From contig JAUIJL010000004.1 of the NCBI GenBank assembly GCA_030431255.1, forward strand, positions 62,001-126,000: a stretch of DNA of 64,000 nt. The letters run 5' to 3'. The position numbers were made by a program, and so were the translations under genes. The DNA is from Thermoanaerobaculia bacterium (GTDB lineage Bacteria > Acidobacteriota > Thermoanaerobaculia > Multivoradales > J023). Below, piece by piece: positions 18,656 through 24,164 of the stretch (the first letter of the stretch is position 1; the number at the start of each line of letters is the position of its first letter). The notes beneath the pieces were generated by a model. That model was not told the origin of the DNA, made no database searches, and saw only the letters and a program-made list of their open reading frames with translations.

Positions 18656-19483
18656 TCAAGCTCCGCTTAGGACCTTCTGGATGGCCGCCTCCGGTTTGTG
18701 GAGCTCGCGGCCCGTCAGACGTCCGATTTCCTTACCCCCGACATAAACGATCCCAGTCGGCACTCCTTTGATCCCCATTTCCTGGGTCACTGGGTCGTCG
18801 GTCATCACTCTTGGAAGCCCATAATACTCGAAATTGATTTTGCTGCCCTCCAGGCCCTCTTCGAGCCTCATCACCTTGGGCACCAAACGGGAGCACACCG
18901 GGCACCAAGTACCAAAGAAGATTTTGACCGACACGTCACGTTTTTCGGCCTTCAAGGCCTCCATTTGAGTGCCGTCGAGCTCGTAGGCAGCAGATTTGAA
19001 CAGGTAGCCGGGATTGTGCTCGCTCAAGCTTTGGGCCTTTTGGTTGCCCAACAAGGCCGGCTTGACCTTGAGGGTCATCTGCTGACCCTTGACGTTGAAG
19101 ACCAGACTCTGGTGGCGGGTCTGGAAGGGACCCAAATTGTCGAAGACGGCGCCGTTCAAGAGGTCGATAGTGCCGTCGTCGTTCTTCGACACCTTCATCA
19201 AGCTGACGGCTTCGATGCTACGGCTGCGGGTATTGACCAAGAGCGGGCTTTTCAGGGCCGGGGCCATGATCAGGTACGCACCGGCGCGATCGGAATGGAA
19301 GAGCTCCAAGCCTTCGAGCTCTTCGCCGGCCAGCTCGACCTCGAACTCACCGGACGGCTCGAAACCTTGCATGGCCTGGGCACCGAGCATGCCCGCCGTG
19401 CTCAACGCCAGCATGGCGATCAGGGCCATTCGGCCGAGGTGTCGGATCTCGTGGAAACCTAAATATCTATCCATCACGTTCAT
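18656..19483 (-). CDS. Secreted thioredoxin-fold protein with CPVC site
   Basis: The 275-residue product has a signal/anchor (MALIAMLALSTAGMLGAQA, about residues 19-37), a ~140-residue beta-rich domain of no known family (FEVELAGEELEGLELFHSD onward), and a C-terminal thioredoxin fold from about residue 180 with IFFGTWCPVCSRLVPKV (Cys194, Cys197), the cis-Pro region GVPTGIVYVGGKEIGRLTG, and a last helix. It would act in the periplasm as a thiol oxidoreductase. The start may be the second ATG (19474). The partner upstream is a MauE-like membrane protein and downstream is a porin, so disulfide handling for an exported partner is plausible but unproven. Confidence 0.78.
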   Translation of the reverse strand: MNVMDRYLGFHEIRHLGRMALIAMLALSTAGMLGAQAMQGFEPSGEFEVELAGEELEGLELFHSDRAGAYLIMAPALKSPLLVNTRSRSIEAVSLMKVSKNDDGTIDLLNGAVFDNLGPFQTRHQSLVFNVKGQQMTLKVKPALLGNQKAQSLSEHNPGYLFKSAAYELDGTQMEALKAEKRDVSVKIFFGTWCPVCSRLVPKVMRLEEGLEGSKINFEYYGLPRVMTDDPVTQEMGIKGVPTGIVYVGGKEIGRLTGRELHKPEAAIQKVLSGA

Positions 19484-19593
19484 TCTCCGGTGGGAGCCGG
19501 CTCGGGTCGTCGAGAGCCGGCTGGGGTCAGGCTGTGTGTCTCAGCTTTTAAGGGGTCGTCGTGCCTAGGGGTTTTCAGCTGTGGCCGGGCGGT

Positions 19594-20619
19594 TCAGGGT
19601 TGTGATTTACGGAAATCGTCCCAAGGAGGCAGGCCCGAATAGGTTTGCACGACCGTTCCGTCTTTCACCAAAAACGATCTCGGAAGGGTGCGATAAAGCG
19701 GCGCCATCACCGCTGAGGGGGTTTCACGAATTTCGAAAGTGGGTCCGTGTCCGAAACGCAGCTCGAAAAGCTCTTCCTCAGTGGCGCTCGAAAGCACCCA
19801 CAACGCCGGCACTCCCTCTTCCCAAGCGAACGTGTTGAGGTCGGGAATGGCGGTGGTGAAAGCCTCCGCTTGAATGTCTGCCATGACCACCAGATGCTCT
19901 CCGGTCGCCAGCTCCGGAAGGATAGCATCGAGGCAAACCCGCGAGCCATCTTCCGCCGAGCCCGCACAGAGGCCGAAGGGATCGATGCCCGGCTTGAGCC
20001 GGGTGGCCAAATCGTCGAGCGGTAGGCTCGGAGCGTTCCAAGCAAAAACCGTGAATCCCAAACCGAGCACTAGGGCCACCGCGAGCCGCTTCCACGGCAG
20101 CTGCCGGGATGTGTTGATGGCCAAACCGATCAACAGCAAGGCCGGCACCATCAGCAGGAAGTCCTGCCAGAACGCCTCCGCCGGGGTACGTTCCACCAAG
20201 TTGCCGAAACATCCACAGCTTTCGCCCTCGACCGGCGCCTCGCCTCGCAGGTGTGCCAAATATTTTCGACCGGTGAGGAAGACGAAGAACGCCACCAATG
20301 CGGCCGTCGGCCAAAACACCCAGCGGTGGCGTACGCCTAAAATCAGCGCGAAGCCCAAGAACCACTCGAGGAAAAGCGCGATCATGGCCACCGCCATGGC
20401 CGGGAGCAAGAAATCCAACCCTTCGGAGGTCACCAAATCCGCAAAGGACGACGGATCCAAGGATTTGGCCCAGCTGGCCACCAGAAGCACGGCGCCCAGC
20501 ACCACGCAGCCGACAGTGGCGGCGATCCGGCGCCAAGACGCCGGGCCGTCGGCCTCCGAGGATAGAGCGTCCGGAGTCGAAAGGGTCGGTTGGATGGATG
20601 CGGTTTCTGGATCTGACAT
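19594..20619 (-). CDS. MauE/DoxX-like membrane protein
   Basis: The 340-residue product has four or so membrane segments in the first 190 residues (RRIAATVGCVVLGAVLLVASWAKSLDPSSF, AVAMIALFLEWFLGFALILG, WPTAALVAFFVFLTGRKY, FLLMVPALLLIGLAI) with CGCFG at 135-139, the hallmark of the MauE domain. A C-terminal ~130-residue domain (HLVVMADIQAEAFTTAI, PALWVLSSATEEELFELRFGHGPTFEI, LPRSFLVKDGTVVQTYSG) reads like a thioredoxin-fold domain without a CxxC motif. MauE proteins pass electrons for disulfide formation in partner proteins. The neighbouring CPVC thioredoxin-like protein is the obvious partner. The ATG at 20619 is chosen over an upstream one. Confidence 0.75.
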   Translation of the reverse strand: MSDPETASIQPTLSTPDALSSEADGPASWRRIAATVGCVVLGAVLLVASWAKSLDPSSFADLVTSEGLDFLLPAMAVAMIALFLEWFLGFALILGVRHRWVFWPTAALVAFFVFLTGRKYLAHLRGEAPVEGESCGCFGNLVERTPAEAFWQDFLLMVPALLLIGLAINTSRQLPWKRLAVALVLGLGFTVFAWNAPSLPLDDLATRLKPGIDPFGLCAGSAEDGSRVCLDAILPELATGEHLVVMADIQAEAFTTAIPDLNTFAWEEGVPALWVLSSATEEELFELRFGHGPTFEIRETPSAVMAPLYRTLPRSFLVKDGTVVQTYSGLPPWDDFRKSQP

Positions 20620-20756
20620 GCCCGAAATGGTACGCAGGGGCTCGCCCGAGGGCAAGCGCCTAGGCCCCGATCTGCCAGAGGTTTACCGCGACTTTACAGC
20701 CTGTCTCGAGGTCCGGGATCCGGTCCCGGGAGGGCTCCGAATTCCGAGCATCGGCG

Positions 20757-23700
20757 TCAGGCTCGATAGACCGTGGTGCCGGCCAGCTTGTCGTGAATGC
20801 CCCGCTTGTCTTTGCTGAAGGGCACAGACAGGAATCCCAAACCGAGCGGCAGGGCCGAAATGAGGTAACCCACCAGACGCTTCACGGCCTTGACCGGGCC
20901 CAGCCGCGCGTTCCCTTGCTCGTCGCGAATCACCAAGCGGCAGGCCCATTTGCCAGGGCTGGTACCGCCCACGGTCCAGCCGATCAGCCAGATGGCAGGG
21001 GCCAGGAAGGACAGCGCCCCGAGGAGCATCGGGTCTTTGATCGCCAAACTGCCCGCGAAGGCCAAACCCGCGACCAGAATGATGTCGATCAAATAGGCCA
21101 CCAGCCGAATCGCGGCCCCAGCGGGCACCAAGCTGGAGGCGGTGGGAAGCTGCGCGGTGACTTGCCCGGGTGGCATGGCGAACGCATCGGTTTCGACCGC
21201 CGGTTGTTGGGGTGGACGCATTTCGGGAGGACCCACGGAGGCCGTGATGTCGTCCAAGGACGGCAGCAGGTCCGCGACCGGCTGACGCTCCAACACTTGG
21301 GGTTGCTCAGGTGGTGGTGCCGCCGCGGGCGTGGGCTGGGAAAAGCCCCCTGACGGCGGCGAAGCGGGCGGTGTCACCTGATCGAAGGAGGGAGTCGGTG
21401 CCGCCGAAGGTGCATAGGAGGCGGGCGGATCAAAGGATGGCGCGGAGGACGGCACACTCGGGCTTTCCGCCAGAGGCGTATCCGGCGAATCCGGAAGGTC
21501 GGGGGTAAAGAACTCCGGAGCCGGTGCCGAAAAATCGGCCAAACCGGACTCGTCCGCGTGGTCGGGAAGCGGGGCGTCGAAGACCTCCGCCGCCGGTGGC
21601 GCGAAGAAATCACCCGACCCCGGCCCGATGCTCGAGGTCCCCGGAGCACCGGGTGGCCCAGCTTGAGGTGCGGCCGGCTCGGGCACGAACGGCTCAGGGG
21701 CGGCCGGCTCGGGCACGAACGGCTCAGGGGCGGCCGGCTCAGGAGCTGCGAACGACGGCTCGGGCACGGCCGGCTCAGGAGCTGCGAACGATGGCTCAGG
21801 GGCGGCCGGCTCCAAGGACGGCGGGCTCACCGCCGAGTCGAAAGACTTGACCTCGAATTGTGAGGACGCGTCCAAATCCCCGAAGCTCAGGGATTCCGCG
21901 CCGACTCCCCCAAATCCCGGTTCCGGCGCGGGCTGAAAGCTCGCGGACGGCGCATCGAAGCCCGGGGCCGAATCGTCGGCATCGAAGCTCGGCGACGCAT
22001 CGAAGCTCGGGGACGAATCGCCGGCATCGAAGCTCGGCGGCGATGCGTCGAAGCTCGGGGACGAATCGCCGGCATCGAAGCTCGGCGGTGATGCGTCGAA
22101 GCTCGGGCTCGAATCGCCGACGTCGAAGCTCGGCGGTGACGCGTCGAAGCTCGGGCTCGAATCGCCGGCATCGAAGCTCGGCGGCGATGCGTCGAAGCTC
22201 GGGCCCGAATCGCCGGCATCGAAGCTCGGCGGCGATGCGCTGCCCACCGGGCTCGGAGACGGTGGTGGATCCGGGCTCGCCAACACAGGAGGTGGTGCCA
22301 TTGCCGGTGGAGCCGGCTCGTCCAGATCGTCCAAAGCAATGTCGGGAACTTGAGGTGCTTCGGCGTAGACCTCGGGCTCTAAGGGGACCGCGGCCATGCC
22401 GACGATCGATTGCTCTGACGATACGTCGATATCGGGCACAACCGGCATCTCGCCGTCGGCTTCCGGAGCCACGGGCGCGATCGGCATGCCGAGGATGCTC
22501 TGCTCGGAGGCAACATCGATATCGGGCACCGACGGGATTTCGATCGATGTGGCGCCGGCTCCTCCGTCGGGCGAGTAGGCCGTGACCTGCGGACGGAGGG
22601 GCCGAGCCGCCATGGCCATGAGGTCCTCCGCGGTCTGCGGTCGGCTCGACGGTGCCTCGGGCTCGGGCGCTGACGGCTCGGCGGAAGCCTCAGCGGCCGG
22701 AAGTGCGACCGGCGGCCGAGAGGGCTCCACCGGCAGCGGCGGAGGTGCGGCCGGCTCAGGAGCAGACGGCTCAGGGGCGGCCGGCTCAGGTGCGGCGAAC
22801 GACGGTGGAGCCGGCGGTGCGGCCGGCTCAGGCGCGGCCGGCTCAGGCGCGGCCGGCCCAGGCGCGGCCGGCCCAGGCGCGGCCGGCCCAGGCGCGGCCG
22901 GCGGCATTGCGGAGGCAATGCCCTCGGCCTGCAATGCTTGCAGCTGGTCACTCGTCAGGGCCGTGGTTTGCATGGCGGCCGCGGGCATAGAGCCTTCAGC
23001 CGGCTCGGGCGACGTGCCGGCACGCAGGGCTGCCAGCTGATCGGCGCTCATGGCCGTGGTCTGCATGGCCGAAGGGATGACCGGATCTTCAGGCGCCGGG
23101 ACTTGTGACCTCAACGCCTCCAATTGCTCGGGGCTCATGGCCGTGGTCTGCATGCCGGTGTCCGGCCCCATGTGCGGGCTCTCGGGCACCAGACCCTGGG
23201 CATCCAGACGTTGGGTCACGAGGGACGGGTTTGCCGGCTCGGCCGGGGGTATGGCACTCAAGTCCAGGCGCTGGGTGGCCTGGGGGCTGGCCTCGACCGC
23301 AAAATCCGTGGGAGCCGGATTCTGAAAGTCGGGCACTTGGAATCTTTGGGTCTCGGCCCCCATCGGCTGATCGGCCGCCCCGGAAGACGCCGCTGCAGGA
23401 ACCGATGCCTCGGGAGCGGCGACGGGCTCGGCAGGACCGAATCCCAGCTCACTGACGTTCATTCGCTGGGTGTCGAGACTGACCCCGGAACCGCTATCGG
23501 CTCCCGGAATCGCCGGCGGCGCGGTCGTCGGCTGGGCGGACGGTGGAATCGGCATGGCCGACGGCGAAGCCGCATGAGCCGGTGGGGGCACCGGCATGGC
23601 CGATGGCGAGGCGTCGAGGGCCGGAGGCGGCACCGGCATGGCCGATGGCGAGGCGTCGAGGGCCGGAGGCGGCACCGGCATGGCCGACGGCGAGGGTGGA

Positions 23701-24164
23701 TCGGCGGGAGGCATGACGAATTCCGCCGCGCTCGGACCGGCGCCGGCGTCACCGCCTTGGGACTCCATGGCCTCCGCCAGCTTCATGGACTCCGCCTGCA
23801 GAAAGAAGGTGGCCTCGCCGGGCTGCGGCAGGCTCTGGTTGGCCGGCAACCGGGCGGTTTGGAAGAGCTGAGGATTCTCGATGGTCACCCGAACCTCGGC
23901 ATCGCCCATACGCAACAGATCGCCGTTTTCGACCACATCTTCGGCTTGCACTCGACGATCGTTGATGAACGTGCCGTTGGAGGATCCCAAATCCCGAACG
24001 ACCAAATGGCCGTCGCCCGGAACCAGAATCACATGCCGCCGACTGACGCTCGGGTCGCTGATCGTCACATGGCAGGTTCGGCTTCTTCCGACCGTGTTCT
24101 CGCCATCTTCTAAGGCGAAGCTCTCGCCTTGGAATTGCAGCGAATGGGTCCAGCCTTCAGCCAT
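20757..24164 (-). CDS. Giant FHA domain-RDD domain protein with low-complexity linker
   Basis: The 1135-residue product has an N-terminal FHA phosphothreonine-binding domain (residues ~15-97: NTVGRSRTCHVTISDPSVSRRH, DLGSSNGTFINDRRV), a ~900-residue Pro/Ala/Ser-rich linker, and a C-terminal RDD membrane domain (~1010-1135: IRLVAYLIDIILVAGL, TSPGKWACRLVIRDEQG, DKRGIHDKLAGTTVYRA). The linker has three repeat classes: SPSAMPVPPPALDA near 158-200; T-x-x-hydrophobic motifs at Thr103, 232, 272, 297, 317, 339, 368 and 399; and SPPSFDAGD-type units near 690-780. FHA domains read the residue three after pThr, so the linker motifs may be its own ligands after phosphorylation. Function otherwise unknown; it may link Ser/Thr kinase signalling to the membrane. 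Confidence 0.88.
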   Translation of the reverse strand: MAEGWTHSLQFQGESFALEDGENTVGRSRTCHVTISDPSVSRRHVILVPGDGHLVVRDLGSSNGTFINDRRVQAEDVVENGDLLRMGDAEVRVTIENPQLFQTARLPANQSLPQPGEATFFLQAESMKLAEAMESQGGDAGAGPSAAEFVMPPADPPSPSAMPVPPPALDASPSAMPVPPPALDASPSAMPVPPPAHAASPSAMPIPPSAQPTTAPPAIPGADSGSGVSLDTQRMNVSELGFGPAEPVAAPEASVPAAASSGAADQPMGAETQRFQVPDFQNPAPTDFAVEASPQATQRLDLSAIPPAEPANPSLVTQRLDAQGLVPESPHMGPDTGMQTTAMSPEQLEALRSQVPAPEDPVIPSAMQTTAMSADQLAALRAGTSPEPAEGSMPAAAMQTTALTSDQLQALQAEGIASAMPPAAPGPAAPGPAAPGPAAPEPAAPEPAAPPAPPSFAAPEPAAPEPSAPEPAAPPPLPVEPSRPPVALPAAEASAEPSAPEPEAPSSRPQTAEDLMAMAARPLRPQVTAYSPDGGAGATSIEIPSVPDIDVASEQSILGMPIAPVAPEADGEMPVVPDIDVSSEQSIVGMAAVPLEPEVYAEAPQVPDIALDDLDEPAPPAMAPPPVLASPDPPPSPSPVGSASPPSFDAGDSGPSFDASPPSFDAGDSSPSFDASPPSFDVGDSSPSFDASPPSFDAGDSSPSFDASPPSFDAGDSSPSFDASPSFDADDSAPGFDAPSASFQPAPEPGFGGVGAESLSFGDLDASSQFEVKSFDSAVSPPSLEPAAPEPSFAAPEPAVPEPSFAAPEPAAPEPFVPEPAAPEPFVPEPAAPQAGPPGAPGTSSIGPGSGDFFAPPAAEVFDAPLPDHADESGLADFSAPAPEFFTPDLPDSPDTPLAESPSVPSSAPSFDPPASYAPSAAPTPSFDQVTPPASPPSGGFSQPTPAAAPPPEQPQVLERQPVADLLPSLDDITASVGPPEMRPPQQPAVETDAFAMPPGQVTAQLPTASSLVPAGAAIRLVAYLIDIILVAGLAFAGSLAIKDPMLLGALSFLAPAIWLIGWTVGGTSPGKWACRLVIRDEQGNARLGPVKAVKRLVGYLISALPLGLGFLSVPFSKDKRGIHDKLAGTTVYRA

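Follow-up and report, generated by a model that had tools for sequence, protein, structure and literature searches.

Threonine motifs in the linker of a bacterial FHA-RDD membrane protein family as possible ligands of its own FHA domain

What does the FHA domain of a membrane protein bind when the linker of the same chain carries many threonines, each followed at position +3 by a hydrophobic residue? The question is raised by a gene encoded in 64,000 nucleotides of a Thermoanaerobaculia bacterium (NCBI GenBank assembly GCA_030431255.1, contig JAUIJL010000004.1, positions 62,001 to 126,000 of the forward strand), referred to here as the window and numbered from its first letter. The gene product has an FHA domain, a very long linker and an RDD membrane domain. 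The best reading of the linker motifs, judged from their sequence patterns, is that, once phosphorylated on Thr, they are ligands for the FHA domain of the same protein, bound in cis or, more likely, between molecules. The protein would then be a membrane-anchored, phosphorylation-switched self-assembly protein, a proposal to which we give an even chance. A broader proposal is made tentatively, with a chance somewhat short of even: the protein may belong to a widespread FHA-RDD family with a founding self-ligand just behind the FHA domain, in which some lineages independently multiplied the ligand from one or two to eight or nine copies, using different repeats and the same T-x-R-hydrophobic code. 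Such a family would form a natural valency series for phosphorylation-controlled clustering at the membrane.

The preliminary description of the locus as a protein with FHA and RDD domains is borne out by Pfam, with both matches above the gathering score. PF00498 (FHA) matches residues 24-87 with 62.8 bits (gathering score 20.7, E 4e-17) and PF06271 (RDD) matches residues 1015-1129 with 53.9 bits (gathering score 24.1, E 3e-14). The span 22955-23860 given earlier does hold the motif zone, but the entire gene occupies 20757-24164. The low-complexity linker between the domains comprises about 900 residues. Because residues 96-1006 consist to 64 percent of Pro, Ala, Ser, Gly and Glu and have a net charge of -107, the linker is most naturally read as disordered.

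20757..24164, minus strand: gene for the FHA - linker - RDD protein of 1135 amino acids (open frame; Pfam FHA and RDD)
23904..24095, minus strand: FHA domain, residues 24-87 (Pfam; R27, S41, R42, S62 and N63 invariant in 15 aligned proteins)
20778..21122, minus strand: RDD membrane domain, residues 1015-1129 (Pfam)

The Thr motifs are given below, with their equivalents in the window family, which comprises seven members, G000 (the window protein) to G006; the linker of G004 is cut.

23847..23858, minus strand: T103-ARL, T-x-R-L motif adjacent to the FHA domain; equivalents TMRL in G001 and TVRM in G003 and G006 (sequence and alignment)
23799..23810, minus strand: T119-FFL (ATFFLQ); A-T-x-x-L-[QA] in all seven family members (alignment)
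23460..23471, minus strand: T232-QRM (sequence)
23340..23351, minus strand: T272-QRF; in G001 too, TQRF comes after the first TQR site (sequence)
23265..23276, minus strand: T297-QRL (sequence)
23205..23216, minus strand: T317-QRL (sequence)
23136..23147, minus strand: T340-TAM, first of three MQTTA[ML][ST]xxQLxAL units; G001 has one TVAMTPEQLEAA unit (sequence)
23049..23060, minus strand: T369-TAM, second of these units (sequence)
22956..22967, minus strand: T400-TAL, third of these units (sequence)

All eight Thr-x-x-hydrophobic motifs counted in the preliminary description are present, although its numbering of the last three is one too low (T340, T369 and T400 are correct). Further sites outside these eight have been identified, including T119-FFL, T1003-AQL and others beyond. 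The earlier statement that the repeats share little else does not hold: five motifs, namely T103 and the TQR motifs at T232, T272, T297 and T317, have Arg at +2 in common, and TTA[ML] belongs to one duplicated unit that is present three times. The hydrophobic set used for the +3 counts is L, I, M, F, V, Y and W, and the expectation is taken from the shuffled sequence. On this basis a hydrophobic residue stands at +3 of 9 of the 19 Thr in residues 93-410 (3.8 expected, p 0.004), of 14 of the 31 in residues 93-1005 (5.8 expected, p 0.0003) and of 5 of the 12 in residues 411-1005 alone (2.1 expected, p 0.046). The +3 position is the best of 19 offsets (-8 to +11) in the first two regions and is tied with -1 in the third.

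Orthologs were collected with a profile of the N-terminal 140 residues at a threshold of 110 bits in 72 genomes of the order, 23 of which gave a match above the threshold. For 20 of these matches an RDD domain is encoded in the same frame; G004, G015 and G040, which make up the rest, have frames that run into contig ends. With the RDD end as sole query (E 1e-6, 40 genomes) only the genome itself was found; the orphan protein that this query suggested is ruled out, as the FHA-end query found orthologs. The gene rsmE is situated directly upstream of the FHA-RDD gene in all seven family members, which supports their orthology. To these came ten FHA-RDD proteins of more distant members of the phylum, taken from 30 loci in 396 evenly sampled genomes. 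Nine FHA loci of these 30 are without RDD and were unused, and four FHA-RDD rows were left out at first and added later.

In the seven family linkers Thr-x-x-hydrophobic occurs at 58 of 167 Thr, compared with 31.2 expected and a maximum of 49 in 3000 shuffles, and +3 is the highest of 22 offsets. Ser has no such peak (63 of 322 with a hydrophobic residue at +3), and the preference for Thr over Ser fits an FHA reader. When similar sites are merged, +3 is hydrophobic in 36 of 112 Thr clusters, as against 16-29 at eight other offsets (+1 to +9). Taken singly, the linker of the window protein is enriched beyond all of 2000 shuffles, that of G001 with p 0.0065 and that of G003 with p 0.046.

The form with Arg is the more distinctive one. 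T-x-R-[LMFIV] is found 21 times in the family linkers with 0.6 expected and a maximum of 5 in 5000 shuffles; the Arg at +2 was noticed after viewing the orthologs, so that this pattern is post hoc, though the margin is large. The control motifs are at or near zero (reversed 0, T-x-K 1, T-R-x-hydrophobic 1, T-x-x-R-hydrophobic 0) or close to their expectation (S-x-R-hydrophobic 1 with 1.1 expected, A-x-R-hydrophobic 3 with 2.1 expected). T-x-R-hydrophobic is found in six of the seven members, and its occurrences group into 13 clusters when similar sites are merged. Sites of the kinds listed above number two per FHA domain in G003, G005 and G006, eight in G001 and G002 and nine in the window protein.

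The site close behind the FHA domain is seen far beyond the window family. In 27 of 31 FHA-RDD proteins a Thr-x-x-hydrophobic motif stands no more than 40 residues past the FHA domain, with 9.8 expected from shuffles or 9.3 from the rest of the linkers, and the proteins concerned carry 11 family labels. In the comparison set of 85 other FHA frames, taken from the best 80 FHA loci among the matches listed, it is present in 46 with 38.3 expected. With the inclusion of five rows first left out, three of which have linkers of only 31-34 residues, the count becomes 31 of 36 (12.5 expected). The form T-x-[RK]-hydrophobic occupies this place in 13 of the 31 FHA-RDD proteins (0.74 expected), or 14 of 36 with the added rows (0.92 expected), as against 2 of the 85 other FHA frames (4.6 expected). 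Recognition of the chain's own site is favoured because site and FHA domain occur in one chain and the site is weak or absent in other FHA proteins. The earlier impression that the Thr/+3 spacing is selected thus finds support in counts above the shuffles in the family linkers, in the restriction to Thr and not Ser, and in the recurrence of the site behind the FHA domain across many families.

The genome (10.2 Mb) encodes 45 FHA matches and, at E up to 1e-10, at least 152 Pkinase matches. Its other FHA proteins were sampled as 30 loci and one further region, giving 33 frames in which at least two genes appear twice, and the 20 best-scoring kinase loci gave 15 frames past the filter. T-x-R-[LMF] shows no excess in the sampled FHA proteins other than the FHA-RDD protein, with 4 occurrences in 32 frames; all 33 frames hold 6 with 10.1 expected, and two of these six belong to the FHA-RDD protein itself in a cut locus. 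The 15 kinase frames have a slight excess (8 with 4.9 expected). Within the frames sampled, T-x-R-[LMF] is specific to the FHA-RDD family and not general, and the lack of a clear excess speaks against a general kinase consensus.

Two kinases, L215 545-3037 (minus strand) and L211 2234-4048 (plus strand), have TVRLD-like sites, HTVRLDMA and, just behind the masked kinase region, PTVRLDSAE; these are possible trans ligands of the FHA domain. Another FHA protein of the genome, 1114 residues long (L012 954-4295, minus strand), which by eye has an ABC transporter at its end and would be a second FHA membrane protein, is without T-x-R-[LMF] outside its FHA domain.

The residues G26, R27, S41, R42, H44, S62, N63 and G64 are invariant in the 15 aligned proteins, which thus have the conserved GR, SRxH and NG of an FHA domain. 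The peptide-binding residues of DgcB are given as R61, S75, R76, T96 and N97 in PMC6733907, and mapping by signature suggests that they correspond to R27, S41, R42, S62 and N63 here. AlphaFold2 applied to residues 1-140 gives a confident FHA domain with block-mean pLDDT of 86-98 up to residue 100. The solved structures nearest to this model are those of FhaA (3poa, 3po8, 3oun), with GarA, EmbR, OdhI and DgcB lower in the list; a sequence search of solved FHA structures also has FhaA first and includes Rv1747, and some of these relatives are complexes with phosphopeptides. T103 lies about seven residues past the last FHA strand (residues 89-96 in the AlphaFold2 model). The termini of FHA domains are generally opposite to the peptide cleft. 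Since the site is so near to the end of the domain and the termini face away from the cleft, T103 should hardly reach its own cleft, and binding between molecules would be favoured.

The repeats appear to turn over within the family. The order of the motif types, as read from the list with doubled units taken once, is alike in the window protein and G001: TxRL, ATxxL, TQR[ML], TQRF, TQRL, T[QR]RL and T[TV]A[ML]. The array of G002 instead consists of five TTRLD units together with TSRL and TQRF, and two TMRMP units are found in the cut linker of G004. The motif code seems to be kept while positions and repeats turn over; most distal sites appear to shift position, with the motif class as the feature that persists. 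DNA coding for MQTTA[ML] was found at one place only elsewhere in the genome, where it has a stop in frame, and at two copies in the gene itself, with a pattern so strict that it missed the third copy of the same gene (CAA codon), so that other carriers are possible.

The mechanism suggested by these observations has three steps. At least one of the many Ser/Thr kinases of the genome would phosphorylate the motif Thr, the protein's own FHA domain would bind the phosphothreonine and take up the hydrophobic residue with its +3 pocket, and multiplication of the sites would have supplied more ligands per FHA domain in the window family. The older self-ligand would be the single site that closely follows the FHA domain, and sites only a few residues past the domain, such as T103, would be reached more easily by the FHA domain of a neighbour than by their own. 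Phosphorylation would then cluster the RDD-tethered molecules, or hold the FHA domain occupied until a partner competes.

A number of observations weigh against self-recognition. A plain alignment to the nearest ortholog, the check proposed in the preliminary description, gives a nearly neutral result in a two-species linker alignment full of gaps: the motif Thr is kept in 6 of 15 cases and other Thr in 4 of 15, and +3 stays hydrophobic in 9 of 15 compared with 50 of 154 other hydrophobic residues. Taken one by one, four family linkers of the seven show no significant enrichment (p values: G002 0.13, G004 0.08, G005 0.50, G006 0.15), and in 24 more distant linkers the count of 51 (36.3 expected) is inside the shuffle range (maximum 59), with 50 at offset -10. 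G005 is without any T-x-R motif, and the array owes part of its size to duplication. Three of the four orthologs in family f5 (G018, G025 and G031) lack the site behind an FHA domain of intact signature, the fourth (G010) counts as positive only through TDEY, and G134 and G319 also lack the site. Ser is not excluded entirely: the Ser form with Lys allowed occurs 6 times in the family linkers with 1.5 expected, and Ser-x-[RK]-hydrophobic follows the FHA domain in 7 of 36 proteins, at least partly from an AESxKLA stretch behind T119. In the AlphaFold2 model, built with one true ortholog in the alignment and no phosphate, the tail with T103 and T119 has block-mean pLDDT of 58-65, low-confidence helices at 98-104 and 119-134 and no extended ligand strand; from confidence and secondary structure this segment appears undocked, a weak point in view of the single ortholog. 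Finally, the hydrophobic residue at +3 may stem from the preference of the kinase and not from that of the FHA domain. Thr was found in 88 percent of the phosphopeptides that fell upon inhibition of PknA/PknB, according to PMC5845002, and since a preference for Thr is also seen for kinases, +3 and Thr alone cannot separate reader from writer.

Other explanations account for some of these points. The motifs may be kinase sites that recruit other FHA proteins, in which case the protein would serve as a phosphorylated scaffold, with its FHA domain reading something else. FhaA works by binding other phosphoproteins, MviN and CwlM (PMC11898655), a genome with 45 FHA and at least 152 kinase matches is in keeping with such a scaffold, and so are the f5 orthologs that retain the FHA domain without the adjacent site. 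We nevertheless consider it unlikely in view of the site, which is present in 27 of 31 FHA-RDD proteins (11 family labels) with little or no enrichment in other FHA proteins, and of T-x-R-[LMF], which has no excess in the FHA frames sampled from the rest of the genome and only a slight one in the 15 kinases (8 against 4.9). T-x-R-hydrophobic, and likewise T-T-A-M-S-P-E-Q-L, might instead be a short docking motif for an unphosphorylated partner, with Thr as a helix cap or contact. In several motifs there is a second hydrophobic residue at +8 together with a [STD]xx[EQ] stretch that resembles a helix cap (TTAMSPEQLEAL, TTRLDPSQL), +8 stands relatively high among the offsets (40 of 167, close to +7 with 42 and -2 with 41), and the low-confidence helices of the model at 98-104 and 119-134 point the same way. 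However, Ser, which is twice as common, rarely replaces Thr in the Arg form (S-x-R-hydrophobic 1, the chance level), as would fit an FHA ligand, and +3 holds even where +8 is not hydrophobic (TQRLIVGPD, TMRLPSGGG), so that docking is judged quite improbable. The motifs might also be a product of chance and duplication, in a Pro/Ala-rich linker that drifts fast; much of the linker is made up of tandem repeats, TTA[ML] being one duplicated unit and TTRLDPSQL another. With +3 still highest after similar sites are merged (36 of 112), T-x-R-hydrophobic in 13 clusters and above all 5000 shuffles, and the site behind the FHA domain recurring far outside the window family, this explanation has very little left in its favour.

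Recognition of the protein's own phosphothreonines has precedents. The FHA domains of GarA and OdhI are known to bind a phosphothreonine of their own chain with a hydrophobic residue near +3; their site is N-terminal and the proteins are soluble, with no known RDD domain. The present FHA domain is related to theirs (27-29 percent identity in structural alignments) and shares with them a conserved Thr with a hydrophobic +3 in the FHA domain's own chain, here in 27 of 31 proteins (31 of 36 with the added rows), but the candidate sites lie behind the FHA domain, are many per chain and are membrane-anchored. The tail of OdhI carries pT15, and the FHA domain of DgcB of Bdellovibrio binds its own N-terminal phosphothreonine, with Val at +3 and conservation in homologues, in the same or another monomer (both from PMC6733907). 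The candidate self-ligand Thr with hydrophobic +3 resembles that of DgcB, which differs in having a single N-terminal site and a GGDEF output.

Rv1747 of M. tuberculosis is also a membrane protein with FHA and a disordered linker. When its FHA-linker-FHA part is phosphorylated, condensates form more readily, at a lower saturation concentration, and nanoclusters of the protein are also described (PMC9312465). Anchor, FHA domain and candidate phosphosites are present here as well. Rv1747 has two FHA domains and an ABC transporter and no RDD, whereas the present protein has one FHA and RDD; it may work like Rv1747 without being a member of that group. FhaA (Rv0020c) has the closest solved FHA domain (3po8, 3poa, 3oun); it differs in that its FHA domain is C-terminal and in the lack of RDD. 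It has an unstructured linker of about 300 residues, and ligands named for it in PMC11898655 are other proteins, MviN and CwlM. A phosphopeptide of FhaA, FEQSSNLHTGQFR, contains a T-x-x-F site, with the site assignment described as ambiguous in PMC4322841.

FHA self-ligands (GarA/OdhI, DgcB) and phospho-controlled condensates of a membrane FHA protein (Rv1747) are thus already known. The present case differs in its family (FHA-RDD), in having the sites behind the FHA domain, in the T-x-R-hydrophobic code and in a graded multiplication of the sites. A literature search found no work on the FHA-RDD architecture and none on the motif preference of the kinases. If self-recognition is true, evolution has tuned the valency of a phospho-dependent bacterial assembly in one gene family, and orthologs with two, eight and nine sites could relate ligand number directly to clustering. 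The FHA-RDD combination would also gain a role, and T-x-R-L/M/F would be a ligand code in one branch of bacterial FHA domains, many of which are uncharacterised.

Among the window neighbours of the gene (rsmE upstream, MauE-like and thioredoxin-like genes downstream) no kinase gene was seen. The upstream neighbour in other families is an ABC-type ATPase gene at L049, L052, L057 and L061, with a UvrA DNA-binding match in three of these, and a 5'-nucleotidase gene at L055. As the upstream neighbours differ between families, rsmE gives no functional clue. The MauE-like membrane gene and the thioredoxin-like gene are situated at 18656-20655. A MauE-like gene is also found downstream in G002 and G003, and G002 has a thioredoxin-like gene with a match just below the Pfam cut-off. 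Judged from the window, G002 and G003, the order rsmE - FHA-RDD - MauE - Trx is perhaps a conserved cluster. In G036, G015 and G007 (L049, L050 and L055) a CxxC / CPxC zinc-ribbon-like stretch has been noticed by eye inside the linker, soon after a T-V-R-[IV] motif.

Another part of the linker is made up of repeats with regularly placed Phe.

about 21942..22229, minus strand: SPSFDASPPSFDAGDS repeats, residues about 646-741, with Phe every ~6-9 residues (sequence reading; similar PSFDAP repeats in G002)

The pattern [PSA][STP]F[DEAQ] has 21 hits in G002 (the PSFDAP array), 17 in the window protein, 4 in G001 and 1 in G005, with none in G003, G006 or the cut linker of G004. The evenly spaced aromatic residues of the SPSFDASPPSFDAGDS repeats could be stickers of a condensate-type linker. 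Opposite to the motif zone, an open frame of 329 codons extends over 23124-24113 on the plus strand, and it is most likely a by-product of the high G+C content and the repeats.

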